Positions 1 through 16,256 of a stretch of DNA of 42,110 nucleotides are shown here, one piece after another; within the stretch, counting starts at the first letter, position 1; each line of letters opens with the position of its first letter. The stretch is from Anaerolineales bacterium. Lineage in GTDB: Bacteria; Chloroflexota; Anaerolineae; 4572-78; NAK82. Below the pieces are notes generated by a model. It searched no databases. It was given only the letters and a program-made list of their open reading frames with translations, and had not been told where the DNA came from. The position numbers and the translations under genes are program-made. Where the stretch lies: positions 1 to 42,110 of the forward strand of contig JAHELX010000003.1 of NCBI GenBank assembly GCA_024643945.1, given 5' to 3'.

Positions 1-1
1 G

Positions 2-88
2 AACAGCTACAACTGCACGGGGGTTACCTACTCGAACCGCGTCGACACCGGCTATGCGCTGGACTTCATCAACAGCTTCCTCGAGTAA
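2..88 (+). CDS. C-terminal end of an exported protein, possibly trypsin-like protease (partial)
   Basis: Only the last 28 codons are in the window, ending with TAA at 86-88. The visible tail contains a Cys followed by GVTYSNRVDTGYALDFINSFLE, which resembles the end of chymotrypsin-fold (S1) proteases, where a YTRV-like strand leads into a terminal helix ending in WI or FI. The catalytic residues lie outside the window, so the family call is tentative. A strong terminator follows within 25 nt, and the downstream neighbours are exported hydrolases, which fits a secreted enzyme. Confidence 0.4.
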   Translation, partial: NSYNCTGVTYSNRVDTGYALDFINSFLE

Positions 89-109
89 GTGCAGCAAGGT
101 TATTAATAG

Positions 110-138
110 AGCTCCACCCGTCCAGCGGGTGGAGCTTT
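110..138 (+). terminator. Rho-independent terminator
   Basis: An 11-bp stem (AGCTCCACCCG paired with CGGGTGGAGCT) with a short loop is followed by TTTTCCTT. It ends the partial gene and lies directly before the first copy of the recurrent promoter and leader. Confidence 0.85.
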
Positions 139-156
139 TCCTTATGTCTCAGGCCA

Positions 157-190
157 GAATTCAAACCGAAATCTAACCGGTTTATAATGA
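157..190 (+). promoter_or_regulatory. Recurrent promoter module, copy 1
   Basis: TTCAAA (160-165) and TATAAT (183-188) are separated by exactly 17 nt, and the block is bounded by GAATTC on both sides. Between the hexamers lies a direct repeat of AACCG with 11-nt period, which could be an operator for a direct-repeat-binding regulator. The same module recurs at 3294, 5844, 14605 and 16093. Transcription would begin near 195, giving a leader of about 660 nt before the M6 protease gene. Confidence 0.65.
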
Positions 191-194
191 ATTC

Positions 195-858
195 GATGTA
201 TTTTTCCTGCCCGTTTGCCCCTCTATTATACATGGGATGTCGAAAGGCGGGCCCATAGCCTCTTCCAGTTACGGCCCACGCGCGCCCACATCAGATCAGG
301 AGATCGATTTTGGGGCTTCTTTCTTACTCTGGTATTTTAGGGGTGATTTAGGCTCTTGAGCGCATTTCCTTTCTCATTCGTTGTTTTTTCTCCACGTTGT
401 TTTGCCAGACCGGCAGTTCCAGACTAGAGACAATCCTGGGAGCTATCTGCATTGAGGCAGACGAAGGTTAGTACGCAGCCATGTCAAAGCGGACCGCGGG
501 GTAAGCACCTCATATGGGGCACCAAGATGCCACCGGGTGTCCCCATGGAGTATTGGCCCTGCAACCGGCAATCCTGCGTTATTCTAGCGACGGGGCCCCG
601 CTGACAACCCTGTAGCTCGGACCGAGTTATCTCGGCAAGCCTGTTTTGGTCCCACAACACGACCGCGAATGTCGTAGCCACATGAAAAACCAATACTCGC
701 CAACGCGAAAGGGGGTGATGGAGAAAGACGGCAGGGACTGAAGTAGACGCTTAACCAGCCAGTGTGCCCAAGCATACCGGACCTGCAGCAGCGAAAATCA
801 ACTGCAGAACACCACAATTACCCTAAGACAATCTCGAGATAAGGAGCAGAAACTCACC
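195..858 (+). ncRNA. Recurrent long leader, copy 1 (candidate structured 5' UTR of the M6 protease gene)
   Basis: No gene is supported here, but the stretch is clearly homologous to 3332-3790 and 5882-6260. Conserved blocks are TCTTCCAGTTACGGCC (about 259-275), a TCTGC-ATTGAG-GCAGA hairpin (445-460), and a larger hairpin at 510-548. In the larger hairpin ATGGGGCACC pairs with GGTG-T-CCCCAT around the loop AAGATGCCACCG. The loop is identical in the other two copies while the stem changes with pairing kept. A box complementary to the 16S 3' end follows at 707-719. This is read as an untranslated regulatory leader; no known riboswitch family was recognised. Confidence 0.6.
707..720 (+). promoter_or_regulatory. 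Extended Shine-Dalgarno box far from any main start (STAB-SD-like)
   Basis: GAAAGGGGGTGATG is nearly fully complementary to the universal 3' end of 16S rRNA, yet lies about 140 nt before the M6 protease ATG, which has its own AAGGAG. An ATG sits within the box and opens only a 7-codon frame (718-741). Similar remote boxes in Bacillus cry3A mRNA (STAB-SD) bind ribosomes and stabilise the 5' end. Confidence 0.6.
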
Positions 859-3120
859 ATGAAACGCACAATTTCTATTGTCTTACTGATTGCCATGCTG
901 GCCAGCCTGGCGGCCACGCCGGTGCTGGCCATGCCAGCGCAGCCGCTTGACACCTCTGCGTCACAAGTAAATCCAGCCTCCGGTGGCAAGGACGGCCAGC
1001 CCGAAAAAGAGGACAACCGGCCTGACCCGCTGACTACTAGGCAGGCAGAGCTAAAAGAGAAGGCACTTGAAGCCAAACTCAACGGCAAAGCTTATGGGAA
1101 GACCCACGAAGTGGCTCGCGGCCAGTACGTTGAGCTGGAGCGCCAGGGCGAAGACGCGATCTGGACGGTGCTGGGTGAGTTCAGTGACTTTCCTCACAAC
1201 AGGATCGCGGAACCAGATCGCTCCTACGACAACACCACCATCTGGACATCCGATTTCAACCGTGACTACTTCATGAATATGCTCTTCGCCGACAGTCCTG
1301 GGGCAAATTCGATGCGCAATTTCTACATCGAGCAGTCCTCCAATCGCTACACGGTCAACGGCGATGTGACCGACTGGGTTGCACTCCCCGGTCTAGCCTG
1401 TGATTATGACGACGGCGATCCAGGACCCGGCGATGCCACCGACGTCTGGCAGTTCCTGATCGATTCGATCAATGGCTGGCACGACGCACAGATCGCGGCG
1501 GGCAAAACGCCGGAAGAGATCAACGACTACCTGAGTCAGTTCGACGTCTGGGACCGGTATGATTATGATGGCGACGGCAATTTCAATGAGCCGGATGGCT
1601 ACATCGACCACATGCAGTTTGTGCACGCCGGAGAGGGCAATGAAGCTGGCGGCGGGGCGTTGGGCGACTGCGCCATCTGGAGCCACAGTTGGTACGCCTA
1701 CTCCAACCTGATCGGGACGGAGGGCCCGGACTTTAACAAGTATGGCGGCGTCCGGATTGGGAACAGCAACTACTGGGTCGGTAAGTACACCATCCAGCCC
1801 GAGAACGGCGGCGTCGGTGTGTTTACCCACGAATACGGCCACGACCTGGGCCTGCCCGACCTGTACGACACCTCCGGCGGCGAGAACGGGACCGGCTTCT
1901 GGACCCTGATGTCCTCGGGTTCGTGGATGGGAGACGGAACCGTGGATATTGGTTCCAAATCAAGCCATATGGGCGCCTGGGAAAAGTTCCAGCTTGGCTG
2001 GCTAAACTACGAGGTGGCCTTTGCCGGCCAAAAGTCCGAGCATAAGCTCGGCCCGATGGAGACCAATACCAAGCAAGCCCAGGGCCTGTTCGTGATACTG
2101 CCCAAGAAAGAGGTCATCACGAATATCGGTCGTCCGTATGAGGGAGAGCAGTACTATTACAGCGGCGCGGGCGACAACCTGGACCACTTTATGGTCAAAC
2201 CCTTCAGCCTGGCTGCCGGATCGAGCCTAACGGCCAAGGTCAGATACAGCATTGAGGTCGACTGGGACTATGCCTACCTGATCATTTCGACCGACGGTGG
2301 TACTACCTGGAGCAGCCTGGAAACCAATCTGTCGACCACGACGGATCCCAACGGCCAGAATTTTGGCTTCGGCATCACCGGCTCCTCCGGCGGTTGGGTC
2401 GATCTGACGGCAGACCTCTCAAGCTACGAAGGTGATGTTCTGCTCGGTTTCCGCTATTGGACGGACGCCAACACCGGCGGCTTCGGCTTCATGGTCGACA
2501 ATATCCAGATCACTGGCTATGACCTCGATGGCGCTGAGGCCGACGCCAGCTGGACCTTCGATGGCTTCCGCGTGACGAACGGCACCGAGGCCGCCTTGTA
2601 CAACCACTACTATGTGGCCGAGTTCCGCCAGTATCGTGGTTACGACACCACCCTGCGCGATGGCCCGTACAACTGGGGCTTCCAGGATGTTCCAGTCGTG
2701 GGCGACTACCGCGTAGAGCACTTCCCCTACCAGGATGGCTTGCTGATCAACTACTGGGATACATCGCAGCGGAATAACCAGGTCTTGCGCCACCCCGGCC
2801 AGGGGCTACTGTTGCCCATCGACGCCCACCCCACAGCGATGATTCGTCCCGACGGCGGCGTGTGGCGCAACCGCATCCAGACCTTCGACTCGACCTTCAC
2901 CCTCGAGCCGACGGATGAACTCAACCTGCACTGGTTGAGTGTGCCGTACCCTTTCCCCAGCCAGCCGGCGGTTCCGGTCTTTGACGATAGCAATACGTAC
3001 TACGACCCGGTTAATGCTTGGGGCAGCGTGATCGTCCCCAACACCGGCACGCAGATTCGGATCCAGAGCATAAGCGCCCAGGGCAACTTCATGCAGGTAG
3101 AGGTTCGCCCGGCGAAGTAA
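859..3120 (+). CDS. Secreted M6-family (immune inhibitor A-like) metalloprotease
   Basis: The 753-aa product begins with a signal peptide (cleavage predicted after VLA, residue 24). A zinc-protease motif HEYGH is at residues 324-328, followed by GLPDLYD and a MSSGSWMG segment, as in M6 peptidases related to immune inhibitor A. Residues of about 450-570 form a MAM or jelly-roll-like beta domain (DGGTTWSSLE, then GGFGFMVDNIQI) typical of this family. It should act outside the cell on proteins. The start is supported by AAGGAG 12 nt upstream. The gene is monocistronic, with a very long conserved leader and hairpins after the stop. Family assignment is firm; substrate is unknown. Confidence 0.9.
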   Translation: MKRTISIVLLIAMLASLAATPVLAMPAQPLDTSASQVNPASGGKDGQPEKEDNRPDPLTTRQAELKEKALEAKLNGKAYGKTHEVARGQYVELERQGEDAIWTVLGEFSDFPHNRIAEPDRSYDNTTIWTSDFNRDYFMNMLFADSPGANSMRNFYIEQSSNRYTVNGDVTDWVALPGLACDYDDGDPGPGDATDVWQFLIDSINGWHDAQIAAGKTPEEINDYLSQFDVWDRYDYDGDGNFNEPDGYIDHMQFVHAGEGNEAGGGALGDCAIWSHSWYAYSNLIGTEGPDFNKYGGVRIGNSNYWVGKYTIQPENGGVGVFTHEYGHDLGLPDLYDTSGGENGTGFWTLMSSGSWMGDGTVDIGSKSSHMGAWEKFQLGWLNYEVAFAGQKSEHKLGPMETNTKQAQGLFVILPKKEVITNIGRPYEGEQYYYSGAGDNLDHFMVKPFSLAAGSSLTAKVRYSIEVDWDYAYLIISTDGGTTWSSLETNLSTTTDPNGQNFGFGITGSSGGWVDLTADLSSYEGDVLLGFRYWTDANTGGFGFMVDNIQITGYDLDGAEADASWTFDGFRVTNGTEAALYNHYYVAEFRQYRGYDTTLRDGPYNWGFQDVPVVGDYRVEHFPYQDGLLINYWDTSQRNNQVLRHPGQGLLLPIDAHPTAMIRPDGGVWRNRIQTFDSTFTLEPTDELNLHWLSVPYPFPSQPAVPVFDDSNTYYDPVNAWGSVIVPNTGTQIRIQSISAQGNFMQVEVRPAK

Positions 3121-3188
3121 AAACGCCACGCAGTTGGCGATGAACTGCCTGGCAGCCTGGACAGGGCGTTGCCGGGTTGATCTTTAGG

Positions 3189-3221
3189 GAAGTCCCCCTT
3201 GCCAGTGGCAAGGGGGACTTC
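3189..3221 (+). terminator. Perfect 15-bp hairpin after the M6 protease gene
   Basis: A 15-bp perfect stem (GAAGTCCCCCTTGCC and its complement) has a 3-nt loop. No U-tract follows, so it may act as a 3'-end stabilising hairpin rather than a classic terminator. Confidence 0.6.
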
Positions 3222-3245
3222 TAGCTGTAGGCCAACCCCCACTAA

Positions 3246-3276
3246 AGCCCCACCCGCTGGATGGGTGGGACTTCTT
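3246..3276 (+). terminator. Rho-independent terminator
   Basis: CCCACCC pairs with GGGTGGG around a 7-nt loop and is followed by ACTTCTTAT. The sequence resembles the terminators at 110 and 16043, and like them it immediately precedes a copy of the promoter module. Confidence 0.65.
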
Positions 3277-3293
3277 ATACAAGCCCCAGGCCA

Positions 3294-3327
3294 GAATTCA
3301 AACCGAAATCTAACCGTTTTATAACGA
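3294..3327 (+). promoter_or_regulatory. Recurrent promoter module, copy 2
   Basis: TTCAAA (3297-3302), 17-nt spacer with two AACCG repeats 11 nt apart, and TATAAC (3320-3325). The flanking GAATTC sites and the AGGCCA preceding them match copy 1. Confidence 0.6.
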
Positions 3328-3331
3328 ATTC

Positions 3332-3873
3332 TATGTATTTTTCCGGCCGATTTACCCCTCTATTATACAGGAAAGTTGAAACGCGGGCCCATAGCCTCTT
3401 CCAGTTACGGCCCACGCGCGCCCCACACCAAATCGAGGGGTGTATTTTGGAGCTTCTCCCTTCTTCTGGTATACTAGGGGCGATTTACACTCGCGATCGC
3501 GTTTCTTTTGATCCACTGTTTTTCTCCAGGTTACTTTACCACAGCGGCAGTTCCAGATTTGAGGCCATCCTGTGAGCTATCTGCATTGAGGCAGACGAGG
3601 GTCAGCACGCAACCATGTCAAAGCGAACCGAGGGGTAAGTATCCCATATGGGGCACAAAGATGCCACCTGGTGCTCCCTATGGGGTATTTGCGTTTCGGT
3701 CGGCAATCCTGCGTTATCCCAGGGACGGGGCACCTATGGCAATGAGGTGTCACGCTGGCAAAGGAGGTGATAGCCAAACCATCTTGTTTCAAAGCCTGTA
3801 GCGTCACGGGTGTGCGCTACGCCGCCCAACGAGGTGTAAACCACTATTCCAACCTGATGGAGGTTAATCTCTG
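3332..3873 (+). ncRNA. Recurrent long leader, copy 2 (candidate structured 5' UTR of the 5'-nucleotidase gene)
   Basis: Homologous to the leader at 195-858, with the same order of conserved blocks. The hairpin at 3643-3684 pairs CCCATA-T-GGGGCAC with GTGC-T-CCCTATGGG around the constant AAGATGCCACC loop. Its stem is longer than in copy 1 and differs at several paired positions. The 16S-complementary box is at 3760-3771. From GTG at 3767 an open frame of 35 codons runs to a TGA overlapping the nucleotidase ATG, but it has no usable ribosome site. Confidence 0.6.
3760..3771 (+). promoter_or_regulatory. Extended Shine-Dalgarno box (STAB-SD-like)
   Basis: AAAGGAGGTGAT is a 12-nt perfect complement of the 16S rRNA 3' end, 103 nt upstream of the nucleotidase start codon. 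The gene itself uses a separate GGAGG 10 nt before ATG. Confidence 0.65.
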
Positions 3874-5532
3874 ATGAAGCGACATGCACGCAATCGCTGG
3901 CTTGTACTCGGCATCCTGCTCCTGTTACTGACCCTGGTCTTGCCCTCGGCTGCCCTGGCCGAAGGCCCCGATCTCAGAACGGTTACCGTGGTCAGCACCA
4001 ACGACCTCCACGGCGCGCTGGTCGGCAGTGTCCAATCCTTTTCCCACGGCGACATGGTGGGTGGAGCCGACTGGGTGGCCGGTTACCTGAACATCGTCCG
4101 ACAGGAGAACCCTGACGGGGTCCTCTATCTCGACGCCGGCGACATGATGCAGGGCACGCTGATTTCCAACTACTTCTACGGAGCCTCGACGATCGACGCT
4201 TTCAACCGCATGGGCCTGGCTGCTATGACCATCGGCAACCACGAGTTCGACTGGGGTCAAGAAGTGCTCCAGGAGCGCTACGACCAGGCCAACTTCCCCT
4301 TCCTGGGGGCTAACATCTTCTATAAGAAGGAGAACGGAAACCCGGACGAGGGGCACGGCGGGCGGCCCCACTGGGCCAAGCCCTACATCGTCCGGGAGGT
4401 GAAGGGTATCAAGGTGGGCATCATCGGCATCGCCAACCCCGAAACACCCTCCATCACTAACCCGGTTAACGTGGCCAACCTGATGTTCACCGATCCGGTG
4501 GAGGCCGTTAACGATGTGCTGCCCAAGGCCGAGGCCGAAGGGGCGACCATGATCGTGGTGGATGCCCACATCGGCGGCTTCTATCCCGACTTCGAGGGCA
4601 TCAAGGACCTGGCCTGTGGGCTCGATCCAGACAAAGTTGACCTCATCGTCTCTGGTCACACTCACTCTCGCCTTGACGACGTGATCTGCGGCATCCCGGT
4701 GGTGCAGGCCTATTCCAGCGGCACCGCCTTCGCCCGGGTGGACTTCAGCGTAGACGCTCAGACGGGCGAAGTGGCCAGCTATAACATGAACTACAGCGCT
4801 ACTACCACCTACCAGACCTATTACGGCAACCCGGCCACCTACAAGCGATGGGATACGGGCGAGCAGGTGGAAGTCGTACCCGACCCCGAGGTTCAGGCCA
4901 TCGTGAACGACTACGCGGCGCAGATTGAGGCCCTCAAGAACGAAGTGATCGGCCACGCGAACGCACCCCTCACCCGTGACTCCTGCGGCGAATCAGTGAT
5001 GGGTGACTGGGCGGCCGATATCATGCGCGACTACGATCCTTCCATTGACTTCGCCTTTACCAACAGTGGTGGCCTGCGAACGGACCTCCCCGCCGGGGAC
5101 CTCACTTTCGGCCAGATCTTCGAGGTTATGCCCTTTGACAACACCTTAGTCATGGTTACTGTGCCTGGTGACCAGCTCAAGAATGTGCTCGAAGATGGTG
5201 TGGGACCGGGAACCAACTACTGTGGCGGAACGCTGCTGCACGGGATCATCCAGGTATCCGGGCTCAAATTCGACTGGGATGCCAGCCAACCCCTTTACAG
5301 CCGTGTCAGCAACATCAGATACTACGATGATACCCCAGTTGGCCTCAGCGCAGCGGCAACCTACACGATTGCCGTAAATGATTTCATGGCCACCGGGGGC
5401 GACGATTCCCCTACGTTAGCTACACTTCCTCAGACCAACACCTATGAACTGATCAGGGACCTCATGGTCAATTGGGTCAAGGCTAACAACCCCTTTGACC
5501 CGCCGGCTCTCTCGGGCCGCATCACACCCTAG
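3874..5532 (+). CDS. Secreted 5'-nucleotidase / metallophosphoesterase (UshA family)
   Basis: The 552-aa product has a signal peptide ending LPSAALA (residue 29). The N-terminal metallophosphatase domain shows every metal-site motif: NDLHG (D44, H46), DAGD (D87, D90), GNHE (N122, H123) and GHTH (H262, H264). The C-terminal nucleotidase domain carries NSGGLR and a VMPFDNTL segment that normally bind the nucleoside. It should hydrolyse extracellular nucleotides to nucleoside and phosphate. Length and domain order are normal for the family. Substrate range (5'-nucleotidase, 2',3'-cyclic phosphodiesterase or UDP-sugar hydrolase) cannot be told from sequence. A small protein follows 77 nt downstream. 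Confidence 0.93.
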   Translation: MKRHARNRWLVLGILLLLLTLVLPSAALAEGPDLRTVTVVSTNDLHGALVGSVQSFSHGDMVGGADWVAGYLNIVRQENPDGVLYLDAGDMMQGTLISNYFYGASTIDAFNRMGLAAMTIGNHEFDWGQEVLQERYDQANFPFLGANIFYKKENGNPDEGHGGRPHWAKPYIVREVKGIKVGIIGIANPETPSITNPVNVANLMFTDPVEAVNDVLPKAEAEGATMIVVDAHIGGFYPDFEGIKDLACGLDPDKVDLIVSGHTHSRLDDVICGIPVVQAYSSGTAFARVDFSVDAQTGEVASYNMNYSATTTYQTYYGNPATYKRWDTGEQVEVVPDPEVQAIVNDYAAQIEALKNEVIGHANAPLTRDSCGESVMGDWAADIMRDYDPSIDFAFTNSGGLRTDLPAGDLTFGQIFEVMPFDNTLVMVTVPGDQLKNVLEDGVGPGTNYCGGTLLHGIIQVSGLKFDWDASQPLYSRVSNIRYYDDTPVGLSAAATYTIAVNDFMATGGDDSPTLATLPQTNTYELIRDLMVNWVKANNPFDPPALSGRITP

Positions 5533-5568
5533 GAACCTGATGTCGTAGGCAGCAGTTCTTGAGGAAAG

Positions 5569-5594
5569 GGAGGAGGGCCGGCCGGCCCTCCTCC
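5569..5594 (+). terminator. 26-nt perfect GC-rich palindrome
   Basis: GGAGGAGGGCCGG and its exact complement meet without a loop. It lies between the nucleotidase stop and the next start, overlaps neither, and has no U-tract. It may be an attenuating or stabilising hairpin between two co-transcribed genes. Confidence 0.5.
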
Positions 5595-5609
5595 TATCCA
5601 GGAGTGGGC

Positions 5610-5828
5610 ATGACACAGAGACAGTTAACCTTTTATGTGAACGACCAAGCCTATACCCGCTGGTATGGTGCTACCGTGGAGCACGCGGTGATCGCCTACG
5701 ACCAGCGCATCCTCAAGGATATCCGCGAGGGCCGCGCCTGGGTAGTGGACGCGCGCGGGGACCGGATGGGGATGGGCGGGACGTTGCAGAACGGGGTACG
5801 CCTGTACATCCGAGCTGAAGCTCCTTAA
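5610..5828 (+). CDS. Small beta-grasp-like protein
   Basis: A 72-aa product beginning MTQRQL, chosen because AGGAG lies 6 nt before this ATG; a longer reading from 5559 would run through the palindrome. The pattern is a beta hairpin (LTFYVND), TVEHAVIAYD helix, AWVVD strand, DxxG turn, and a final GVRLYI strand. This resembles ubiquitin-like or ThiS/MoaD-type beta-grasp folds, but there is no C-terminal GG. It has no signal peptide and follows a secreted nucleotidase. The fold is inferred and the function is unknown. Confidence 0.6.
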   Translation: MTQRQLTFYVNDQAYTRWYGATVEHAVIAYDQRILKDIREGRAWVVDARGDRMGMGGTLQNGVRLYIRAEAP

Positions 5829-5843
5829 ACAAGCCTCAGGCCA

Positions 5844-5877
5844 GAATTCAAACCGAAATCTAACCGTTTTATAATAA
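5844..5877 (+). promoter_or_regulatory. Recurrent promoter module, copy 3
   Basis: TTCAAA (5847-5852), 17-nt spacer containing AACCG twice at 11-nt period, TATAAT (5870-5875). Confidence 0.65.
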
Positions 5878-5881
5878 ATTC

Positions 5882-6548
5882 CATGTATTTTTCCTGCCTG
5901 TTTGCCCCTCTATTATATAGGGAAAGTCGAACCCCGGGCTGATAACCTCTTCCAGTTATGGCCTATGCCTGCCCTACACCAGATCGGAAGGGGTGTATTT
6001 TGGAGCTTCTTGCTTCCTTTGGCATATAGGGGTGATCAGGCTCTTGAGTGTATTTCCTTTCTCATCCGCTGTTTTTTCTCCACGTTATCTTGCCAGGTCA
6101 GCAGTTCCAGACTAAAGACAATTCTGTGAGCTATCTGCATTGAGGCAGACGAGGGTTGCTACGCAATCGTGTCAGAGCGGACTGGAGGACAACCGCCCTA
6201 TGCAAGGCACAAGATGCCACCTTGCGCCCTGCACGGGATACTTGGCCCAGGATCGACAGTCCTGCAACATCCCTTCGTTCCATTCTAAATTTCTAAATTC
6301 GTTACGGGGTGCGCCTCTATGTGCGATACGTGGACGAGAGTGAACGCCGGTAGCTGAGGGGGAATGCTTGGTCAATGCCACCTGCTCGACGATTCATCAC
6401 CGTCGAACAGTCCGGGGATCCCATCCAACAAGACGGCGAAAGGAGCGAAACAGCGCGAAAGGGGGTGATGAAACGGGACACGCCAGACTGAAACCACCTC
6501 ATTTATCCACACAGAAACATACCACAATGTATGGAGGGAGAAAACACC
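5882..6548 (+). ncRNA. Recurrent long leader, copy 3 (candidate structured 5' UTR of the second metalloprotease gene)
   Basis: Homologous to 195-858 and 3332-3873 up to about 6260. At 6196-6237 the hairpin again shows AAGATGCCACC, but the stem is now CCC-TGC-GGC-C pairing with G-GCC-GCA-GGG, so both strands have changed together. After 6285 the leader differs from copies 1 and 2 and instead resembles the sialidase-gene leader (about 12090-12150) around ATTCGTT-CGG-GTG. The 16S-complementary box is at 6457-6470. No gene is supported in this stretch. Confidence 0.6.
6457..6470 (+). promoter_or_regulatory. Extended Shine-Dalgarno box (STAB-SD-like)
   Basis: GAAAGGGGGTGATG lies 79 nt before the protease start, which has its own GGAGGGAG. 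The included ATG opens a frame of 7 codons ending TGA (6468-6491), with the residue pattern M-K-R-D-x-x-D parallel to the frame at 718-741. Confidence 0.6.
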
Positions 6549-8684
6549 ATGAAGCACAAGATTTTGGCTGTGTTGGGCATCGTTGCCCTGCTGGCGGGCA
6601 TGTTGGTGGTTGCAGCTCCGGCTTCCGCCGACGGTCCACCACCGGTATCTCCACCAACCAAGATGGCCCGACCTGGGCCGGATCCCATGGACCTCAGCGT
6701 CGAGATGTTGGGTGAGGATGAAATCGCCATCCGCGAGCTGGCTGCCCAGGTAGGCCCGGCAGCAGCTACCAACGCCTTACCTTTTGGTGAGCCGGCCACC
6801 ATCGGTGACGAGTTCACGATCACCGTCTCTGATGATGGCCTGGGCGTCGATTACGACGAGACTTTCGTGGTCCTGATGGACGGGGCCAATGGGATCATCC
6901 TCATCGAGAAGGCAGCCCTCGACAACTACGACGCGACCACCGACGAGTACGTCTTCCCCAACCCGAATGGCTGCTGGCGGCCGGAGGACCGCATCTCCAC
7001 AGCCCAGTTGGCCTATCTTCTGGATCAGTTCGACACGGTCATATGGCCCACCGACACCTCAGTTTACGGCGAGCCGCTGCCGCGCGGCGAGGAGGGCCAG
7101 AAGATCTGGATCCTGATTTTCAACATCCGTGACGCTTCGTACTATGATTGCTCGCAAACCTCCTACATCGCCGGCTACTTCTCAGCCAGCGAGAGCGCCG
7201 AGAACAACAAGAACATCATGCACATCGACTCCTACGACTGGGCCAACCGCACCGGCCCCGGCGTGGGGCGCCCCTACCTGTATGAGGGGGTCTTCGCCCA
7301 CGAGTTCGAGCACCTGATCCACTTTGACCAAGACCCCGACGAGCCTTCCTGGGTTGATGAAGGTTTAGCCGATCTGGCCGGCTTCCTGTGCGGTTACGGC
7401 CACCCCGACGGGCACATCTTCAACTATCTCGCCTATCACCCCATGGTCTCGCTTACCTTCTGGGGCGGCGGGCTGGAGGATTACGGCGCCAGCTACCTGT
7501 TCCAACTCTATCTGTACGAAAAGTACGGTGGCAAAGCCTTTACCTCAGCCCTGGTGCAGGAGCAGGCCAATGGCATTCAGGGCATCCAGAAGACACTGTC
7601 CGCTTTCGGCTACCGCGACAGCTTCGATGAGATCTTCGACAACTGGGTCATCGCTAATTACATCGACGACACCCGCAAAGGGGGCGGTAAGTACGGCTAT
7701 GAAACACTCGAGATGGGGAGCAGCGATACACGGGGTGCAACCATCGAGTGGGTGTTGACCAACTACTGGTGGGGCCCACCCGACGAGGCGCCCTTTGCTG
7801 TGCCGTCCGACTGGTTCTTCGGCATCGAGCCGCAGCCCTACACCGCCCACTACTTCCGCTTCAATAACAAGAAAGCGGCCAATGTATGGGTTAACGGTGA
7901 CGACTTCGCCGGCACTTTGCCCCACGGCGGCAGCTACGAGTGGTACTCGGATGCTGACGCCTGGGCCTGGCGCAGCTTCTACCAGACCTTCACTATTCCG
8001 GCTGGTGGCGCCACCCTCAATTTCTGGACCTTCTACGAAATCGAGGATGACTGGGACTACGGCTACGTGGAGGTCTACGACCAGGACACCGGCCAATGGT
8101 ACACGCTGGACGCCGCGGGCACCGTGAACTACGTGGCCCACGGGCAGGACAACCCCAACACGCCTGATGAGCGTGAGCCTACCGCCTACGAAGCGGCCGG
8201 CCGCTGGCACGCCTTCACCGGCTACAGCGGCGGCTGGATTCCGGCCTCGATGGACCTGAGTCCCTTCGCCGGGCACACCATCGACCTCTACTTCACCACC
8301 TGGCAGGATGGTGCCTTCACCCTGCAGATGATGTACGTCGACGACATCTCAATCCCGGAGATCGACTTCTCCGACGACGTCGAGGCGGGTGAGGACGGCT
8401 GGACAAGCACCGGCTGGTACGTCACCGATGGCATCCTGGCTAATGGCTTGACTATCGTCAGCGCCGACACCAAGTGGGTGCCCATCGCGCTCTATCCCGA
8501 GCCGGCTGGCAACAATGCCATGGAACTGCACCGCGTATACACGATGATGACCGATCCGGCTACGCAAGAAGGTGTGGTCAAGGTCCCGGCCACACCGGGC
8601 AAGTCCGGGCGTGTGCAGGTAGCCATCATTTCCAACCACGCCAACCACATCTTGTCATCTCACTACGAGTTCAACGTGGATTAG
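6549..8684 (+). CDS. Secreted HExxH zinc metalloprotease with MAM-like C-terminal domains
   Basis: The 711-aa product starts at the ATG preceded by GGAGGGAG at 8 nt; an ATG 18 nt earlier lacks a ribosome site. The signal peptide ends PASA (about residue 28). HEFEH is at residues 251-255 and a likely third zinc ligand is E271 in the DEGLADLAG segment, giving an HExxH-15-E arrangement like M30 hyicolysin-type gluzincins. Residues of about 440-640 hold beta-sandwich regions with DDWDYGYVEVYD and MYVDDISI, as in immune inhibitor A-like proteins. It is probably an exported protease acting on environmental protein. A strong terminator follows. Confidence 0.85.
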   Translation: MKHKILAVLGIVALLAGMLVVAAPASADGPPPVSPPTKMARPGPDPMDLSVEMLGEDEIAIRELAAQVGPAAATNALPFGEPATIGDEFTITVSDDGLGVDYDETFVVLMDGANGIILIEKAALDNYDATTDEYVFPNPNGCWRPEDRISTAQLAYLLDQFDTVIWPTDTSVYGEPLPRGEEGQKIWILIFNIRDASYYDCSQTSYIAGYFSASESAENNKNIMHIDSYDWANRTGPGVGRPYLYEGVFAHEFEHLIHFDQDPDEPSWVDEGLADLAGFLCGYGHPDGHIFNYLAYHPMVSLTFWGGGLEDYGASYLFQLYLYEKYGGKAFTSALVQEQANGIQGIQKTLSAFGYRDSFDEIFDNWVIANYIDDTRKGGGKYGYETLEMGSSDTRGATIEWVLTNYWWGPPDEAPFAVPSDWFFGIEPQPYTAHYFRFNNKKAANVWVNGDDFAGTLPHGGSYEWYSDADAWAWRSFYQTFTIPAGGATLNFWTFYEIEDDWDYGYVEVYDQDTGQWYTLDAAGTVNYVAHGQDNPNTPDEREPTAYEAAGRWHAFTGYSGGWIPASMDLSPFAGHTIDLYFTTWQDGAFTLQMMYVDDISIPEIDFSDDVEAGEDGWTSTGWYVTDGILANGLTIVSADTKWVPIALYPEPAGNNAMELHRVYTMMTDPATQEGVVKVPATPGKSGRVQVAIISNHANHILSSHYEFNVD

Positions 8685-8706
8685 CGCATCCGACGAGCAG
8701 AATCAG

Positions 8707-8738
8707 AAGCGGGGAGGCAGCACTGCCTCCCCGCTTTT
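8707..8738 (+). terminator. Rho-independent terminator
   Basis: A 13-14-bp stem (AAGCGGGGAGGCAG with its complement) with a 2-nt loop runs into TTTT. It lies between convergent genes and may serve both. Confidence 0.85.
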
Positions 8739-8756
8739 CCGTGGGCGCCTCAATGC

Positions 8757-9365
8757 TTACTTTCGTTCCGCCGGCGGCACAATGACCACGTCGTTGTCGC
8801 GGGTCTGGTTGGGCCAACCATCCTGCACCGAGGCATCCGGTCCTTTGGATGGTGCCGCCCCCGACGGCTTCCCCTTCTCGCACAACACCACAAACCGCCC
8901 TGTATCCGTATGATACTCATACCTCTGTCCCCCCGCCTCCAATATCACCCGGAACCCGGGCGTGATGACCTGGGCATACATCATGCCCGGCTGCGGGCAG
9001 CCCAGGCTGGTGTCGGACCAATCGACCGCTTCCACCGAGACCAGTTGGATCTGGTCAACCGCCACGCTCAGCCGCTGAGCCAGATCCTCTTTGGCCAGCC
9101 GCACCACCTCCTGCGCCTCCGGTGGCGGCGTCACCGCTGTTCCTGCCGGTGCAGACTCGGGAGTCGTCCCCGCCGGCCCTGGCTGAGGCGGGCGGATAGT
9201 TGGCGTTGGCAGCGCCCGTTCCACCCCGCGAGTCTCGGTGCTGCCCGGCTGCGTCGGAGTCGGTGCCGCTTGAGGTGCTATGGGCGCCAGCTTTCCGCCG
9301 CAACCGGCGGTCCCCAAGCCTACCAGGAGGAGTAGCACCACTGCTATCAACCAATGATGTTCCAC
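8757..9365 (-). CDS. Lipoprotein with SLGCPQPG domain
   Basis: The 202-aa product starts at GTG (GAGGTGA 6 nt upstream). Residues 1-22 are a lipoprotein signal ending GLGTAGC. A Pro/Thr-rich linker (to about residue 80) leads to a conserved domain with AKEDLAQRL, WSDTSLGCPQPGMMYAQ, ITPGFRVIL and YEYHTD. The same domain is found at 14124-14420. It should be anchored to the outer face of the membrane. I recognise the domain pattern but not a function. The promoter upstream resembles an ECF-sigma promoter shared with the paralog. Confidence 0.75.
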   Translation of the reverse strand: MEHHWLIAVVLLLLVGLGTAGCGGKLAPIAPQAAPTPTQPGSTETRGVERALPTPTIRPPQPGPAGTTPESAPAGTAVTPPPEAQEVVRLAKEDLAQRLSVAVDQIQLVSVEAVDWSDTSLGCPQPGMMYAQVITPGFRVILEAGGQRYEYHTDTGRFVVLCEKGKPSGAAPSKGPDASVQDGWPNQTRDNDVVIVPPAERK

Positions 9366-9401
9366 GCTTTCTCACCTCGTTCTCATTCCAGTCCCAGGTT
9401 C

Positions 9402-9437
9402 ATTATACAGACGCTTCCCTCTTCTGAAAAGTTCCCT
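9402..9437 (-). promoter_or_regulatory. ECF-sigma-like promoter shared with the paralogous gene
   Basis: On the minus strand GGAACTT is followed after 16 nt by GTCT and then TATAAT. The same GGGAACTTT and TATAAT with identical spacing precede the paralog at 14531-14566. GGAACTT is the classic -35 element of many ECF sigma factors. Confidence 0.55.
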
Positions 9438-10093
9438 CAGCCTTAGTGCTATATATCACATTTTCCTTAAAACTTGAAATCTGACATCACTGAGTGTATT
9501 TTAGGCAGTTTTCCTGCCTCTGTATGATTGGAAATACATGACCCAGAATATCCACTACCAACGGGCGAAGGGTTGACAAAAAGGCACATATCACCCGGAT
9601 CAACGTTTTTGCACGCGCTATCTCGTTCTATCAATGGTCCAGATTAAAGCGTTGACCTCGTACCTGTTACCATTGAGACACCAGTACTTAAAATAGCCAT
9701 CATCTCGCTTACGTCTAATATATTGCTGTCGCATCCAAGCCCTTTTGTGGCTTCCAGATTTACTTCCTCCCACAACGCCGACTCCCGACCCCAGACTGCC
9801 TAGTACCCCATCAAAGTGATCTTGATAAGCCCGATTCAGCCGACATGGGCGTGGCCTTGGTATATCATAATCTCTGTGATGGGGTACTAGTACTATTTCA
9901 TCCTCTTTGCCTCTCATACAACCAGAACCTCGTCCGCTGACCAGGGCTTTTCGCGCTACCAACGCTGCATAGCCGCAGCTAGCACGGATTGGTCTGGCGT
10001 ATGAGAGTCCATAGGGATTTCTCGCTATCGCTCGAAATGACATGGGATTCTATGTCGAACAAGGGTCTAGTGTGGGGTAACGAAAGGGTCTAT
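9438..10093. other. Intergenic stretch with no supported gene
   Basis: A minus-strand open frame of 141 codons (9618-10043) exists but has no ribosome site and begins inside a dispersed-repeat-like sequence. Nothing else recognisable was seen. Confidence 0.4.
10011..10043. repeat. Dispersed intergenic repeat-like sequence
   Basis: The stretch reading ATTTCTCGCTATCGCTCG, partly palindromic, resembles a short repeat common between genes in many bacterial genomes, whose reverse translation gives SFRAIARN. Recognised from memory of such repeats; only one copy is in the window. Confidence 0.4.
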
Positions 10094-10121
10094 CAAATCA
10101 GTCAAGGTAGCAACTTGGGTT
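10094..10121. repeat. Left arm of inverted repeat flanking the S8 protease gene
   Basis: CAAGGTAGCAACTTGGGTT (10103-10121) is repeated exactly in reverse complement at 11644-11662. Matching extends outward through CAAATCA with one small indel. The arms enclose only the subtilase gene. Confidence 0.8.
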
Positions 10122-10160
10122 GTTATTCATATCACGCAGTTTACTGAAAGGAGGCAGGAC

Positions 10161-11507
10161 ATGAACCGATGGAAATTAGCCTTACTTGTGACCACACTCG
10201 CCGTGGCCACTGTCGGACTGAGCGCAGTGGCGCTGGCTGCTGCAACCCCGGGTGACCTGGTCGCCATCTGTGACAGCCTCTACAGCGGTGTCTTCGGAGT
10301 GCCCAATGGCGAGCCGCTGGGTGTGTGTCAGTGGGACATGGCGTTGATCAACGCCTCCGATGACGGCAGCTACGCCACGGCCACCGGGAAAGGGGTCACG
10401 GTCGGCATGATTGACAGCGGCGTCGACTTCACCCATCCCGACATCGCCCCCAACCTCGACGAGGATCGGTCGTGCTCGTTCATCTTCGACGACACGCCCA
10501 CCGCCGATCCCCAGGAGATCGCCAACGGCGACTGCTTCAACAAGGCTGCCGTGCAAGACCTGAGCGGTCACGGCACCCACACCGCTTCGACGGTGGCCGC
10601 GCCCATCAACGGCATCGGCATCGCCGGCGTCGCTCCCGAGGCGACCATCGTGGCGTTGAAGGCCTGCACCGCCCAGGGTTTCTGCTTCGCCGATTCGGTA
10701 GCAGCAGCGCTGCGCTACGCCGGCGATAACGACATCGACATCGTCAACCTGAGCCTGTTCGCCGACCCCTACCTGTACTACTGCAAGTCTGAGGCAGAGC
10801 AGCGCGCCATCCTCAAAGAGCTGGAGGACGCCGCCCGCTACGCCCAGCAGCGGGGCGTGCTCATCGTCGCCTCCGCCGGCAACGAGCAGGCCGATCTGCA
10901 GCATCCGGGTCTTGACGACATCAGCCCCGACTGGCCGCCCGACACGGCCGAGACGCGCTACGTGAAGAACAACTGCCGCGTGGCTCCGGCCGAACTGCCC
11001 GGCGTGATGACTGTGTCGGCCACCGGCCCCGTCGGCTACCCCGGCTACGACCTATGGATCGCCGATTACTCCAGCGTGGGCATGTCGCGCGTGGACGTGA
11101 CCGCTCCGGGTGGTGACTACTTCCGGGCCACCGGCACCGTCCAGGACGCTGTGCTCGGGGCAGTCCCCTTCGACTCAGAAATCTGGAACGGCTACGACCC
11201 ACTCAACGCCTTCTACCCCGGTATTACCGTCACCGACCAAGGCGCTGGCTACGTCTATCTGAACGGCACCTCGATGTCGTCGCCGCACGCAGCTGGGGTA
11301 GCAGCCCTGGTGAAGGAGATGCACCCGAAGTGGGGCCCGGGCGCGATCAAAGCGGCGGTGCAGCGCTCAGCGCAGCATCTCGACTGCCCGCCCAACTGGG
11401 AGCCGCTGGGTACTGCCGACGAGCGGTATCGCTGCTACGGCAACGGGGGCCGCACCTCGTTCTTCGGTCACGGCCTGGTGGACGCGGCGGCGGCGGCTCA
11501 GCAATGA
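10161..11507 (+). CDS. Secreted S8 subtilisin-like serine protease
   Basis: The 448-aa product starts after a very strong ribosome site (GAAAGGAGG, 6 nt before ATG). The signal peptide ends SAVALA (about residue 26). The catalytic triad is complete: D85 (GMIDSGVDF), H137 (SGHGTHTAS) and S371 (NGTSMSSPHAAG). The oxyanion-region motif ASAGNEQ is present. There is little room for a long propeptide and no extra C-terminal domain is visible. It should degrade extracellular protein. Unlike its neighbours it lacks the recurrent leader and is flanked by a long inverted repeat. Confidence 0.93.
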   Translation: MNRWKLALLVTTLAVATVGLSAVALAAATPGDLVAICDSLYSGVFGVPNGEPLGVCQWDMALINASDDGSYATATGKGVTVGMIDSGVDFTHPDIAPNLDEDRSCSFIFDDTPTADPQEIANGDCFNKAAVQDLSGHGTHTASTVAAPINGIGIAGVAPEATIVALKACTAQGFCFADSVAAALRYAGDNDIDIVNLSLFADPYLYYCKSEAEQRAILKELEDAARYAQQRGVLIVASAGNEQADLQHPGLDDISPDWPPDTAETRYVKNNCRVAPAELPGVMTVSATGPVGYPGYDLWIADYSSVGMSRVDVTAPGGDYFRATGTVQDAVLGAVPFDSEIWNGYDPLNAFYPGITVTDQGAGYVYLNGTSMSSPHAAGVAALVKEMHPKWGPGAIKAAVQRSAQHLDCPPNWEPLGTADERYRCYGNGGRTSFFGHGLVDAAAAAQQ

Positions 11508-11643
11508 GCCTGCGGTTGTTGGAATCGAAGGCAGCCTAACTGAATGTGATTACTTCGGCAAACCAGAGCAAAGCAGGTGCTCTGTTGGGCTGAGTACGAG
11601 GGACAATTTCGAGTTAGGTTGCGGCGATAACCTTACTATGTGT

Positions 11644-11670
11644 AACCCAAGTTGCTACCTTGGTGATTTG
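11644..11670. repeat. Right arm of inverted repeat flanking the S8 protease gene
   Basis: Reverse complement of 10094-10121: 19 nt are identical, then an indel, then CAAATCA again. The interval including both arms is 1577 bp. No transposase is encoded and no clear target-site duplication was seen. Confidence 0.8.
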
Positions 11671-12019
11671 TCAGCAGAGTGATTTACCCATAGATTTGCT
11701 CATATCAGCCTCCCGGTGGTCAACGCTAAGCCCTGAGCTAATGCTTCTTATCACTGGGTGTCAGTGTTTAACGTAGCTCGCAGATCACTACGTTCGATAT
11801 ATTGCCGGGATATCTGGGCTCCTCATCGCAGCCGGTCACCGTCTCCACCTGCTCAATGTTGTCTTTTCTCCCGTCCATATCCCCATTTCCCAGAACCCGG
11901 CACACAGAGCAGGCCTTGCAACCCGCCTGGATCTGAGTAGTCCTGACTAGCGTAGGCTGGCCAAGCATTGAGATCAACTACCTTCAGGTCACCTTAAGTG
12001 CCGAGCCCAATCCCTGAAA
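11671..12019. other. Intergenic stretch with no supported gene
   Basis: A minus-strand open frame of about 65 codons (11768-11977) has four Cys residues and a GNGDMDG run but no convincing ribosome site. It could be a gene remnant; nothing else was recognised. Confidence 0.3.
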
Positions 12020-12112
12020 AGTGCTTGCTGCCAAGCACTACACCGTAAGGCGGCAGAATTCAACGAATGATTGGGAAATACGTTATTTTCTCAATTCGTT
12101 GCGGAGTGCCGC
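12020..12112 (+). ncRNA. Two strong hairpins in the leader of the sialidase-like gene
   Basis: AGTGCTTG pairs with CAAGCACT at 12020-12039. A long multi-part hairpin follows at 12050-12112: GCGGCA with TGCCGC, CAACGAAT with ATTCGTTG, and an inner GAAATA/TATTTT helix. The right arm resembles the metalloprotease leader near 6290. This replaces the AAGATGCCACC hairpin found in the other leaders. Confidence 0.5.
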
Positions 12113-12167
12113 TCTGCAGTGTTATGTTCTGGGAGTGAGCCAGACTTTCCAAAAGAACTCTCAACCC

Positions 12168-12181
12168 GAAAGGAGGTGATG
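12168..12181 (+). promoter_or_regulatory. Extended Shine-Dalgarno box (STAB-SD-like)
   Basis: GAAAGGAGGTGAT is a 13-nt perfect complement of the 16S 3' end, 105 nt before the true start codon. The adjoining ATG opens a 13-codon frame (12179-12220). Confidence 0.65.
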
Positions 12182-12285
12182 AAAAGAGGACGTTTCGGAC
12201 TGGTATGGACATCTGACTAACTACACACTTGATGAGTGAATATAGACCACTAATCGCAGAATATCAGCTTTGGAGGAAACTTGAG

Positions 12286-14031: not shown

Positions 14032-14051
14032 ACGCAGCACCGGCCGGAATG

Positions 14052-14088
14052 AAGAGGGGGTGGAGCCGAAAAACTCCACCCCCTCTTT
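14052..14088 (+). terminator. Rho-independent terminator, probably bidirectional
   Basis: A 14-bp perfect stem (AAGAGGGGGTGGAG and complement) with an 8-nt A-rich loop is followed by TTTG. It lies between converging genes. Confidence 0.9.
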
Positions 14089-14123
14089 GTTATTAGTTGG
14101 CCACCCTCCAGCGGGTCCAACCG

Positions 14124-14420
14124 CTACTTCTCGTACAACATCACGCTTCGGCCCCGATCGGTGTGGTAGTCGTACTTTTTTCCCGCGGCTTCCAACACCA
14201 CCCGGAACCCGGGCGTAATGACCTGAGCATACATCATGCCCGGCTGCGGGCAGCCCAGGCTGGTATCGCGCCACTCCACCGTTTCAACGGAAACCAGCCG
14301 GATTGCCTCGGGGGCCAGACCCAGTTTTTGGGCCAGGTCTTCCCGGGCCAGACGGACGGCCTCTTTGGCCTCGGCCGGCGGCTTGACCTCGTTCGGTTCG
14401 GTGACAGGGTCAGGAGTCAT
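14124..14420 (-). CDS. SLGCPQPG-domain protein, shortened paralog without signal peptide
   Basis: The 98-aa product starts at the ATG preceded by GAGGAGG at 6 nt on the minus strand; an ATG 60 nt upstream has no ribosome site. It aligns over its whole length with the C-terminal domain of the lipoprotein at 8757-9365 (AREDLAQKL, WRDTSLGCPQPGMMYAQ, ITPGFRVVL, YDYHTD). The in-frame sequence upstream still resembles the linker of that lipoprotein (TR-V-R, PTPT) and is cut off by a stop codon. The lipoprotein signal therefore appears to have been lost. It may be cytoplasmic, or a decaying copy. Confidence 0.65.
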   Translation of the reverse strand: MTPDPVTEPNEVKPPAEAKEAVRLAREDLAQKLGLAPEAIRLVSVETVEWRDTSLGCPQPGMMYAQVITPGFRVVLEAAGKKYDYHTDRGRSVMLYEK

Positions 14421-14530
14421 TGTGGCCTCCTCTCTCCGGGATTCGACTGTCGGCGTTGGCACGCCGGTCCCTTCACGCATCGTCTCCCGGACTACGCGGG
14501 TCTCAGCTCTTGTTCCAAGTCCACTTTCTA

Positions 14531-14566
14531 ATTATAACGCCGTTTTCCTTTCGCAGAAAGTTCCCT
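14531..14566 (-). promoter_or_regulatory. ECF-sigma-like promoter of the shortened paralog
   Basis: GGAACTT and TATAAT on the minus strand, with the same 34-nt span as at 9402-9435. Conserved together with the gene, which suggests a duplicated transcription unit. Confidence 0.5.
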
Positions 14567-14604
14567 CCTCCTGGCATCCGGCGCTCAAAGTCCTTATCCA
14601 GGGT

Positions 14605-14638
14605 GAATTCGAACCAAATTTTAACCATTTTCTAATGA
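14605..14638 (+). promoter_or_regulatory. Recurrent promoter module, copy 4 (diverged)
   Basis: TTCGAA (14608-14613), 17-nt spacer with AACCA and AACCA direct repeats, TCTAAT (14631-14636), flanked by GAATTC on both sides. Confidence 0.55.
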
Positions 14639-14642
14639 ATTC

Positions 14643-15117
14643 CACGTGTCTTTAGTGCAGATTTGTGATATAATATAATAGATTAGTGTAGACTCCACTT
14701 TAGGCACACTGCGTGCCACGCATATGTAGCAAATGGGAGGGAGATCCAGATTACATTGCAATAGTCCCACTTATTGCCGCCTATACTTGCGCCTCCCCTT
14801 TCTTCTACTGGTATTCCGCTCATTCCCACACCCCCATTCCGGAACAAGCGCCTCTCCTGAGGGATCTGCAGCGAGGCGGACGAAGGATATAAGGCCATAA
14901 AGTCAGAGCCGAACGTTAGCAAGCTGGGTGCTCGGAGACACTATTTCGGCCCTCTCTCCAAGAGCCTGCCACTCTGGCAGCAACACGAGGAGGTGATGTC
15001 TACTGATTACGCGTACGGGTATGATTGGCTGGTGATCTCAAATCCGGCCAGCCCCGGTTTTCAAATTGCGATTGTGTCCCATAGGGACCGCACTTCATTG
15101 CACAAGGAGAAAATTCG
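14643..15117 (+). ncRNA. Recurrent leader, diverged copy (5' UTR of the broken secreted-protein gene)
   Basis: Keeps the block GATCTGC-AGCGAG-GCGGACGAAGG (about 14861-14886), which matches the other leaders with a G-U pair replacing A-U in the small hairpin. The 16S-complementary box is at 14987-14998. The AAGATGCCACC hairpin was not found. No gene is supported, although a frame from ATG 14996 stays open for 41 codons and its TGA overlaps the next ATG. Confidence 0.5.
14987..14998 (+). promoter_or_regulatory. Extended Shine-Dalgarno box (STAB-SD-like)
   Basis: GAGGAGGTGATG, with nine consecutive bases (GGAGGTGAT) complementary to the 16S 3' end, lies about 120 nt before the next gene, which uses its own AAGGAG. 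Confidence 0.5.
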
Positions 15118-16125: not shown

Positions 16126-16129
16126 ATTT

Positions 16130-16240: not shown

Positions 16241-16256
16241 TGAGGAAATCTACCCA

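Follow-up and report, generated by a model that had tools for sequence, protein, structure and literature searches.

A repeated, probable promoter-plus-leader unit ahead of genes for putative exported hydrolases in an Anaerolineales contig

Introduction

Why should genes for different enzymes carry the same long sequence in front of them? The window analysed here, a stretch of 42,110 nt from contig JAHELX010000003.1 of an Anaerolineales bacterium, raises this question on its plus strand, where an M6 protease of the immune inhibitor A type (859-3120), a 5'-nucleotidase/metallophosphoesterase (3874-5532) and an HExxH-motif protein with an InhA-like MAM domain (6549-8684, NCBIfam matches below cut-off) follow putative 5' leaders at 206-858, 3343-3873 and 5893-6548. 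A preliminary description saw in these leaders a possible shared regulatory RNA for exported hydrolases and named spread by recombination as the alternative. In our reading, to which we assign a probability of about 0.5, one cassette of promoter and leader, controlled by a response regulator and serving exported hydrolases, was copied to give the three leaders and a fourth that has diverged. If this is true, an uncultured Chloroflexota lineage builds a regulon of different exported enzymes by copying a module, secreted proteases and a nucleotidase are tied to a phosphate-type regulator, and a candidate leader RNA without a known family becomes directly testable.

Extent and origin of the copied unit

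Comparison of the window with itself by blastn gave three homologous stretches of 77-83% identity, at 148-607, 3271-3742 and 5821-6230, which precede the M6, nucleotidase and HExxH (hereafter MAM) genes, respectively. The M6 copy (150-607) matched the nucleotidase copy (3287-3742) at 82% over 460 columns (E 1e-126) and, at 148-534, the MAM copy (5835-6221) at 82% over 390 columns (E 7e-105), and the nucleotidase copy (3271-3679) matched the MAM copy (5821-6230) at 78% over 415 columns (E 1e-88). As such, the ordered conserved blocks described earlier at 195-858, 3332-3873 and 5882-6548 were borne out, and their order is collinear in all three copies. Their upstream edges had to be moved by about 45-60 nt, to about 148, 3271-3287 and 5821-5835, so that the unit includes a promoter block, which had been overlooked and is the best-defined shared regulatory signal. 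On the other side, homology ends at 607 in the M6 leader, at about 3742 in the nucleotidase leader and at about 6221-6230 in the MAM leader, and the gene-proximal 130-320 nt are without shared sequence except for a short element, denoted S.

Two further genes had been described as carrying partial copies. The region at 14.6-15.1 kb, ahead of a small protein (15118-15669, plus strand), is a true but diverged homologue with the promoter block, an 83-nt core and a ribosome-site-like element. The region at 12.0-12.28 kb, ahead of a BNR-repeat gene (12286-14031, plus strand), has in common with the MAM leader only a AAAGGAGGTGATG element and 29 nt (E 0.03), and neither promoter block nor core was found in it. 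Signal-peptide-like N-termini were recognised by eye in the M6, MAM and small proteins, and sequence thus supports a common leader ahead of genes with exported-like product starts. The frame of the small protein extends to 15993 beyond an in-frame TAG.

The genes behind the leaders had been called unrelated. This holds for the M6 protease and the nucleotidase, whereas the M6 and HExxH proteins are not wholly unrelated, because they have a C-terminal MAM domain in common (29% over 174 aa). The closest pair of leaders is that of M6 and nucleotidase, yet the proteins behind them are unrelated. The likeness of the leaders is thus not that of the genes behind them, which supports recombination as the origin of the copies.

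If recombination copied the upstream regions, only the promoter block might be functional, and the 450-nt leader would be passive sequence in decay. The identity of 77-83% with several indels, mostly of 1-2 nt, is what such decay would leave. We consider this a serious alternative, albeit a rather unlikely one, because conservation is clustered. Downstream of the promoter block (M6 200-590), the alignment of the three copies has 395 columns, of which 260 are invariant, and by 5000 permutations both their clustering (p 0.0002) and the longest invariant run of 25 nt (p 0.002) exceed chance. Furthermore, the 14.8 kb copy has kept the core in spite of its much greater divergence.

Promoter block and phosphate genes

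The promoter block lies on the plus strand at 157-205 in the M6 copy, where it reads TCAAACCG-AAA-TCTAACCG-GTT-TATAATGA followed by TATTTT, and at 3294-3342, 5844-5892 and 14605-14653 in the nucleotidase, MAM and diverged copies. A fifth block, without leader, stands at 16093-16128, 22 nt past a terminator-like hairpin. Its persistence alone is in line with promoter duplication as the whole of the matter. The pattern of 11-bp direct repeats, which was picked after the blocks had been seen, has five copies in the window against 0.30 expected, and five copies arose in none of 100 shuffles; with one mismatch allowed, there were 15 matches against 7.9 expected, a number reached in 2 of 100 shuffles. 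Two of the three top-scoring sigma-70-like sites (10/12) are such blocks. In Pho promoters, a -10 element is expected some 10 bp downstream of the boxes. By reading, TATTTT follows the third, weaker repeat by 8 nt in three copies, TGTCTT takes its place in the fourth, and TATAAT itself overlaps the third repeat.

Pho promoters are marked by two or more direct repeats spaced at 11 bp, and an excerpt of PMC1906773 gives their boxes as 8-bp direct repeats with 3-bp linkers, an 11-bp period. The same period occurs here, for the blocks as for a Pho-type box upstream of pstS (30832-30875, minus strand; CTTAACA/GTTTACA/CTTAATA/TTTAACT) in the same window. The half-site TC(A/T)AACCG of that excerpt differs from CTTAACCT here. 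We scored the window with a profile of nine published cyanobacterial Pho sites, the letters of which come from the same excerpt. With three repeats, the pstS region ranked 2, 3, 5 and 6 and the block at 14609 ranked 4 among 84,162 positions, the M6, nucleotidase, MAM and 16 kb blocks were weak (ranks 353, 373, 390 and 557), and the top site was an unrelated spot at 23073. With two repeats, the weak blocks ranked 5153 of 84,184 and the 14609 block 17. Column-permuted versions of this cyanobacterial profile (n=400) ranked the weak blocks as well in 7.5-15% of cases, the 14609 block in 1.25% and pstS in 3%. Against profile and controls, the half-sites thus fare better at 14609, the top match of the five blocks to the published box, and at pstS than in the other four blocks. 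When the half-sites of the window's own pstS box were used, the five blocks ranked 36-332 (three repeats) and 483-910 (two repeats). A spacing of 11 outranked 8, 9, 10, 12, 13 and 14 at each of six sites, the registers of which had already been set at 11. Considering these scores, the likeness of the promoter block to response-regulator boxes of the PhoB type is strong at 14609 and only weak in the three long leaders.

A PhoB/PhoR-type system is encoded in the window itself, on the minus strand. The pstS box ends 72 nt ahead of the start codon of pstS (29632-30759). After pstS come pstC, pstA and pstB, then a gene resembling low-molecular-weight phosphatases and two phoU genes, the series reaching 24866; pstS, pstC, pstA, pstB and one phoU score above NCBIfam cut-offs. 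Nearby are a histidine kinase of the WalK/PnpS/PhoR type (31173-33095, all matches below cut-offs) and an OmpR/PhoB-family response regulator (33153-33914) whose nearest solved relative is RegX3. Both belong to the right family, yet fall below the equivalog cut-offs, the regulator with a score of 223 against 296 for PhoB. A nucleotidase among the putative targets adds to the likeness to the Pho regulons of PhoB and SphR. In contrast to these, the -10 is weak here, proteases are among the putative targets, and the leaders measure 460-660 nt, compared with the 72 nt between box and start codon at pstS.

Leader core and element S

The 83-nt core lies at 416-498 in the M6 leader, where it holds the hairpin UCUGC-AUUGAG-GCAGA and GUCAAAGC, at 3550-3632 and 6104-6186 in the nucleotidase and MAM leaders, and at 14837-14917 in the diverged copy, always on the plus strand. 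A model search, with the 14.8 kb copy included in the model, found the core in these four leaders and no other match at E<1 in the window. All four copies are on the strand of a following gene and ahead of its start. Since several sharp-edged, similar copies lie close together, the unit could also be a mobile, MITE-like repeat that came to lie before genes by chance. We give this hardly any weight, given the constant sense orientation of the core, the inverted matches of only 7, 6 and 5 nt at best between the two ends of the copies, too short for terminal inverted repeats, and the lack of any blastn match in plasmids and phages with the MAM leader as query.

Could the core instead be a separate small RNA, made from the promoter block and lying outside the mRNA, with the enzyme genes read from nearer promoters of their own? 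The unshared gene-proximal sequence would fit, as would the 16.1 kb block, which has no evident plus-strand gene after it. In a crude scan, however, no plus-strand terminator-like site was found inside the three leaders, either between core and gene or elsewhere (12 sites in total against 12.6 in shuffles), so that read-through into the gene is plausible; with a same-strand gene behind each of the four cores, a separate RNA seems improbable.

The core also recalls the targets of ANTAR-type antitermination, which likewise have two conserved hexaloop segments: UCUGC-ANNGAG-GCRGA and a GUC-ARAGC(G/C)-GAC-like segment are present in 4/4 copies, with A1 and G4 in both loops. The second stem is weak, being intact in two copies and containing a non-pair in the other two, and the linker is 21 nt here against 5-12 in the E. 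faecalis eut leaders reported in an excerpt of PMC3369931. ANTAR targets are expected to carry an intrinsic terminator at the second hairpin. Considering also the absence of terminator-like sites from the three leaders, and that Pfam at E up to 0.001 gave no ANTAR domain in 32 window frames (31 distinct), such a target is very improbable.

Element S, which is complementary to the 16S tail and is separated from the start codon by about 80-140 nt, was located at 708-720 (AAAGGGGGTGATG, with 138 nt between its end and the M6 start codon), 3760-3772 (AAAGGAGGTGATA), 6458-6470 (AAAGGGGGTGATG) and, in the diverged copy, 14990-14998 (GAGGTGATG). It also occurs ahead of the BNR-repeat gene (12169-12181) without promoter block or core, all on the plus strand. 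AAAGGRGGTGATG has three exact copies in the window against 0.00 expected, two in long leaders and one ahead of the BNR gene.

Folding of the leader

In folding stability, the shared parts of the leaders do not exceed shuffles (z 0.45, -1.43 and 0.0), as expected of passive sequence. A fold signal came from 2 of 11 alignment windows on the plus strand, with z of -3.0 and -3.5. Of the 32 consensus pairs there, 3 are altered on both sides and 19 have lost pairing in one copy. Among the four copies, no double-sided change occurs in any of the 8 pairs of the two core hairpins. Candidate hairpin A (M6 249-277), with CCTCTTCC in its loop, is not stable above shuffles. Candidate hairpin F has a conserved AAGATGCCACC in M6 (490-577) and reaches -46 kcal/mol (z -5.3) in the nucleotidase copy (3624-3712), and in the MAM copy (6178-6264) the opposite strand is more stable. 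The whole window had no match at gathering score to 4227 Rfam families, and when E up to 5 was allowed over 1-15300, two matches far below cut-off appeared, neither in the three leaders. Of the shared regulatory RNA, then, the common leader ahead of exported-like genes stands, a folded RNA is weakly supported, and an RNA function of the leader is a candidate one. Each of the two earlier ideas, regulatory RNA and recombination, is right in part. The leaders are like Rfam cis-regulatory leader RNAs in being long, conserved and repeated before genes of one functional class, and differ from them in having no family match, weak fold evidence and no ligand hint.

Relatives of the leader

Two metagenome pseudo-proteins, P0121 and P0122, cover the nucleotidase leader at 3333-3572 and show that relatives in metagenomes have this leader. 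They match gap-free, at 88% and 83% identity, an 80-codon frame open at 3333-3575 in the nucleotidase copy, as would be seen if the leader encoded a small protein. However, the corresponding reading of the M6 and MAM copies has stops and frameshifts, the ATG of the frame sits within the promoter block, and the openness of the metagenome frames was selected by the search, because protein databases can contain open frames only. A coding leader is thus highly improbable. Codons conserved in these relatives are not enriched at positions invariant among the paralogs (24/29 vs 37/51, p 0.41), a result that sides with a passive leader.

An exact pattern of the core, which would miss divergent cores, matched once in 84,980 species genomes, within a coding region of Exiguobacterium, and this was taken as chance. 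Three patterns gave 0, 1 and 0 matches in viral contigs, and the lone match, at the meeting point of two ORFs and without the GTCA part, was rejected. A protein-level search with frames of the leader core against 35 candidates gave none at E up to 10. In the collections scanned, no relative lay outside the present lineage, a further difference from Rfam leaders, and no title among the literature matches listed describes this leader. The idea of slower evolution in the leader than in the enzyme was dropped, because nucleotidase P0010, compared by eye, is near-identical to the present enzyme for some 340 residues from its start and departs from it only after that.

Proposed mechanism

In the cassette reading, the promoter block would bind a PhoB/RegX3-type response regulator through its 11-bp direct repeats, most likely the product of 33153-33914 near the pst/phoU genes, and would drive transcription from some 10-50 nt downstream. 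The transcript would carry an untranslated leader of 460-660 nt, in which the conserved core (a UCUGC hexaloop hairpin and GUCARAGC) may modulate stability or translation and element S may help to load ribosomes. Recombination would have copied the cassette ahead of exported-hydrolase genes, and the genes that carry it would therefore be induced together, perhaps at low phosphate. A bolder version, which we regard as doubtful, takes the leaders for a cis-regulatory RNA class of Anaerolineae-like Chloroflexota that has yet to be described. In it, the 450-nt leader, with its conserved hexaloop core and its element complementary to the ribosome tail, would be linked to a phosphate-type response regulator and would travel as a module, so that any exported hydrolase could be controlled jointly in transcription and after it.

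The idea of C-rich, G-poor Rho-utilisation sites was dropped for the three main leaders, the best 78-nt stretches of which are unremarkable, being equalled by 2.8-5% of all windows. The regions upstream of the 14.8 kb, BNR and S8 genes do stand out, with 0.03-0.15% of windows as high.

The duplicated promoter-plus-leader cassette

The upstream regions of an M6 protease gene (859; PF05547 plus InhA-like domains), a 5'-nucleotidase gene (3874; PF00149/PF02872) and a HExxH/MAM protein gene (6549; InhA-like MAM) are homologous over 390-460 nt, as the preliminary description had proposed, with pairwise identities in the shared part of 83% (M6-nucleotidase), 79% (M6-MAM) and 77% (nucleotidase-MAM) and indels mostly of 1-2 nt. 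By inspection, the three products have signal-peptide-like N-termini. The homologous unit starts earlier than first described, at 148-150 (M6), 3271-3287 (nucleotidase) and 5821-5835 (MAM), and takes in a promoter block of direct repeats; past about 607, 3742 and 6230 the sequence is gene-specific up to the start codon, except for a short element S. Since all 18 frames of the three shared parts contain at least two stops each, the shared part is non-coding as a whole. The analysis as a whole covered a single 42-kb window, with a few scans of sequence collections and searches for related proteins; the duplicated cassette is the most secure part of our finding.

The most similar leaders (M6 and nucleotidase) precede unrelated proteins, indicating that copying of the unit did not follow the genes, in agreement with the recombination suggested earlier as an alternative. 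No terminal inverted repeats were found at the ends of the unit and the MAM leader matched no plasmids or phages, so ordinary recombination within a gene cluster is more likely than spread as a mobile element.

An open frame of the nucleotidase leader was translated and searched against 5.8 billion proteins, and two 80-aa metagenome 'hypothetical proteins' matched 3333-3572 without gaps (88% and 83%). For one of them, P0121, the longest contig is of the same length (7690) as that of the nucleotidase relative P0010, so this leader probably lies upstream of the orthologous gene; its divergence is roughly 5-8% by simulated decay. Considering that the first part of P0010, next to the leader, is nearly identical to that of the window's nucleotidase, the leader similarity does not show extra constraint. 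Furthermore, codons conserved in the leader relatives were not enriched at paralog-invariant positions (24/29 vs 37/51, p 0.41), and this argues against the sequence of that part being strongly constrained. P0010 itself is nearly identical over about 340 residues and strongly diverged afterwards, and looks like a recombinant. Among the 120 nucleotidase relatives listed, the two top-scoring named ones come from an Anaerolineae and an Anaerolineales bacterium (65-66% identity), and an uncultured member of the Chloroflexota, class Anaerolineae, is the probable source of the window, although two lower-scoring relatives with names carry the labels Gammaproteobacteria and Promethearchaeota.

A possible fold of the leader, and element S

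In the three-leader alignment, 260 of 395 columns are invariant, with a longest run of 25 nt (p 0.002) and significant clustering (p 0.0002). A hairpin, UCUGC-ANNGAG-GCRGA, is present in all four copies of an 83-nt conserved core (pairing in 20/20 cells, with a single change from U-A to U-G), as is GUCARAGC. Two of 11 alignment windows, around M6 450-595, out-folded 60 column shuffles on the plus strand (z -3.0 and -3.5; minus strand, -1.9 and -1.35). For region F, a candidate hairpin after the core, single-sequence z values were -1.6 (M6), -5.3 (nucleotidase) and -1.9 (MAM), while the minus strand of the MAM copy gave -4.0; of its 32 consensus pairs, 3 changed on both sides and 19 were broken in one copy, with an unfavourable covariation term (+3.9). 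The whole shared parts gave 0.45, -1.43 and 0.0. The evidence for a folded leader RNA is weak, and an RNA function of the leader, as raised in the preliminary description, is possible but unproven.

When five upstream regions were aligned, including that of the BNR gene (12286-14031), AGG-R-GG-TGAT was invariant save the R. For this element S, AAAGGRGGTGATG occurs in three exact copies against 0.00 expected; the shorter GRGGTGATR occurs nine times, five of them inside these upstream regions, against 1.7 expected. Element S is complementary to the 3' tail typical of bacterial 16S rRNA; the organism's own 16S gene lies outside the window. It ends 78-138 nt ahead of the gene start. No start codon is nearby other than a GTG and an ATG that overlap the element, nearer than usual; we read it as a site for standby or loading of ribosomes. 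Short frames from element S reach the gene start in the nucleotidase copy (3767-3874) and the copy before the 15118 gene (14993-15121), where coupled translation would thus be possible, while those of the M6 and MAM copies, by eye, end after about 8 codons.

Further copies in the window

Of two partial leaders reported earlier, the one at 14.6-15.1 kb stands as a fourth copy (14605-14998) with promoter block, core and element S, before a small exported protein gene at 15118, whereas the 12.0-12.28 kb region has no more in common than element S and 29 nt. Within the window, a covariance model built from the four cores recovered, by construction, these same copies (E 2.3e-18 or better), with no fifth match below E 1. 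The frame of the 15118 gene continues to 15993 beyond an in-frame TAG (15667-15669); a pseudogene, a sequencing error or two genes are candidate explanations.

A solitary promoter block lies at 16093-16128, 22 nt past a terminator-like hairpin, and over 86 columns hairpin plus block show 77% identity to the M6 and nucleotidase copies. Downstream of the block are an inverted repeat (16165-16201) and a GC-rich stretch that includes a T run; 16093-16250 could be a small RNA gene.

The promoter block and the phosphate genes

In the three leaders the block reads TCAAACCG-AAA-TCTAACCG-(G/T)TT-TATAA(T/C)(G/A)A, with 11-bp direct repeats. The general repeat pattern occurs five times in the window against 0.30 expected (15 against 7.9 with one mismatch); as it was picked after the blocks had been inspected, the excess means no more than that the blocks are copies of a single element.

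The minus strand encodes a histidine kinase (31173-33095) and a response regulator (33153-33914). It also has pstS, pstC, pstA and pstB, two phoU genes and one gene resembling a low-molecular-weight phosphatase. NCBIfam cut-offs were passed by the transporter genes and by one phoU, while the regulator fell under that for PhoB (223 vs 296) and the kinase was also under its cut-offs. The best solved relative of the regulator is RegX3, a phosphate-response regulator, and by its neighbourhood the product is assigned as PhoB/RegX3-like. Upstream of pstS are four phased repeats by scan, perhaps six by eye; the four end 72 nt ahead of the start codon, so a long leader is no general trait of phosphate genes here.

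As an independent test, we built a Pho profile from 27 half-sites, those of nine cyanobacterial Pho sites taken from PMC1906773. With three repeats over 84,162 positions, this profile ranked the pstS upstream region 2, 3, 5 and 6, the 14609 block 4, and the other four blocks 353, 373, 390 and 557. The top rank went to an unrelated minus-strand spot between SelB and a radical-SAM gene (23041-23073), probably just AT-rich. With two repeats over 84,184 positions, the 14609 block ranked 17th and the four weaker blocks down at 5153. Among seven spacings 11 bp was best at 6/6 sites, with registers pre-set at 11. When the profile columns were permuted 400 times, 1.25% of the permuted profiles did as well for 14609, 3% for pstS and 7.5-15% for the other blocks; when the comparison was limited to positions of equal or higher AT content, 2 of 352 reached the 14609 score (itself counted) and 9-15% those of the other four. 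A profile made from the four pstS half-sites of the window placed the five blocks at 36-332 (three repeats) and 483-910 (two). Taken together, these ranks and controls mark 14609 as a good Pho-type box, with weaker relatives of it in the blocks of the long leaders. A response-regulator box is moderately supported, its phosphate link less so.

Other features

Very C-rich, G-poor stretches lie upstream of the S8 (9732-9809), BNR (11821-11898) and 15118 (14763-14840) genes, with 0.03-0.15% of windows as high; judging from composition, they are possible Rho-utilisation sites. Two minus-strand genes among the exported-hydrolase genes, 8757-9365 and 14124-14531, are related (72% over 292 nt), appear lipoprotein-like by eye and had no Pfam match. 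A GC-rich repeated stretch seen by eye at about 18426-18530 (CCCGATCCCGCCCCGTCCC and near-complements) lies within minus-strand ORF 18036-18911. A SelB-type elongation factor is encoded at 21134-23050, so the organism may make selenoproteins.
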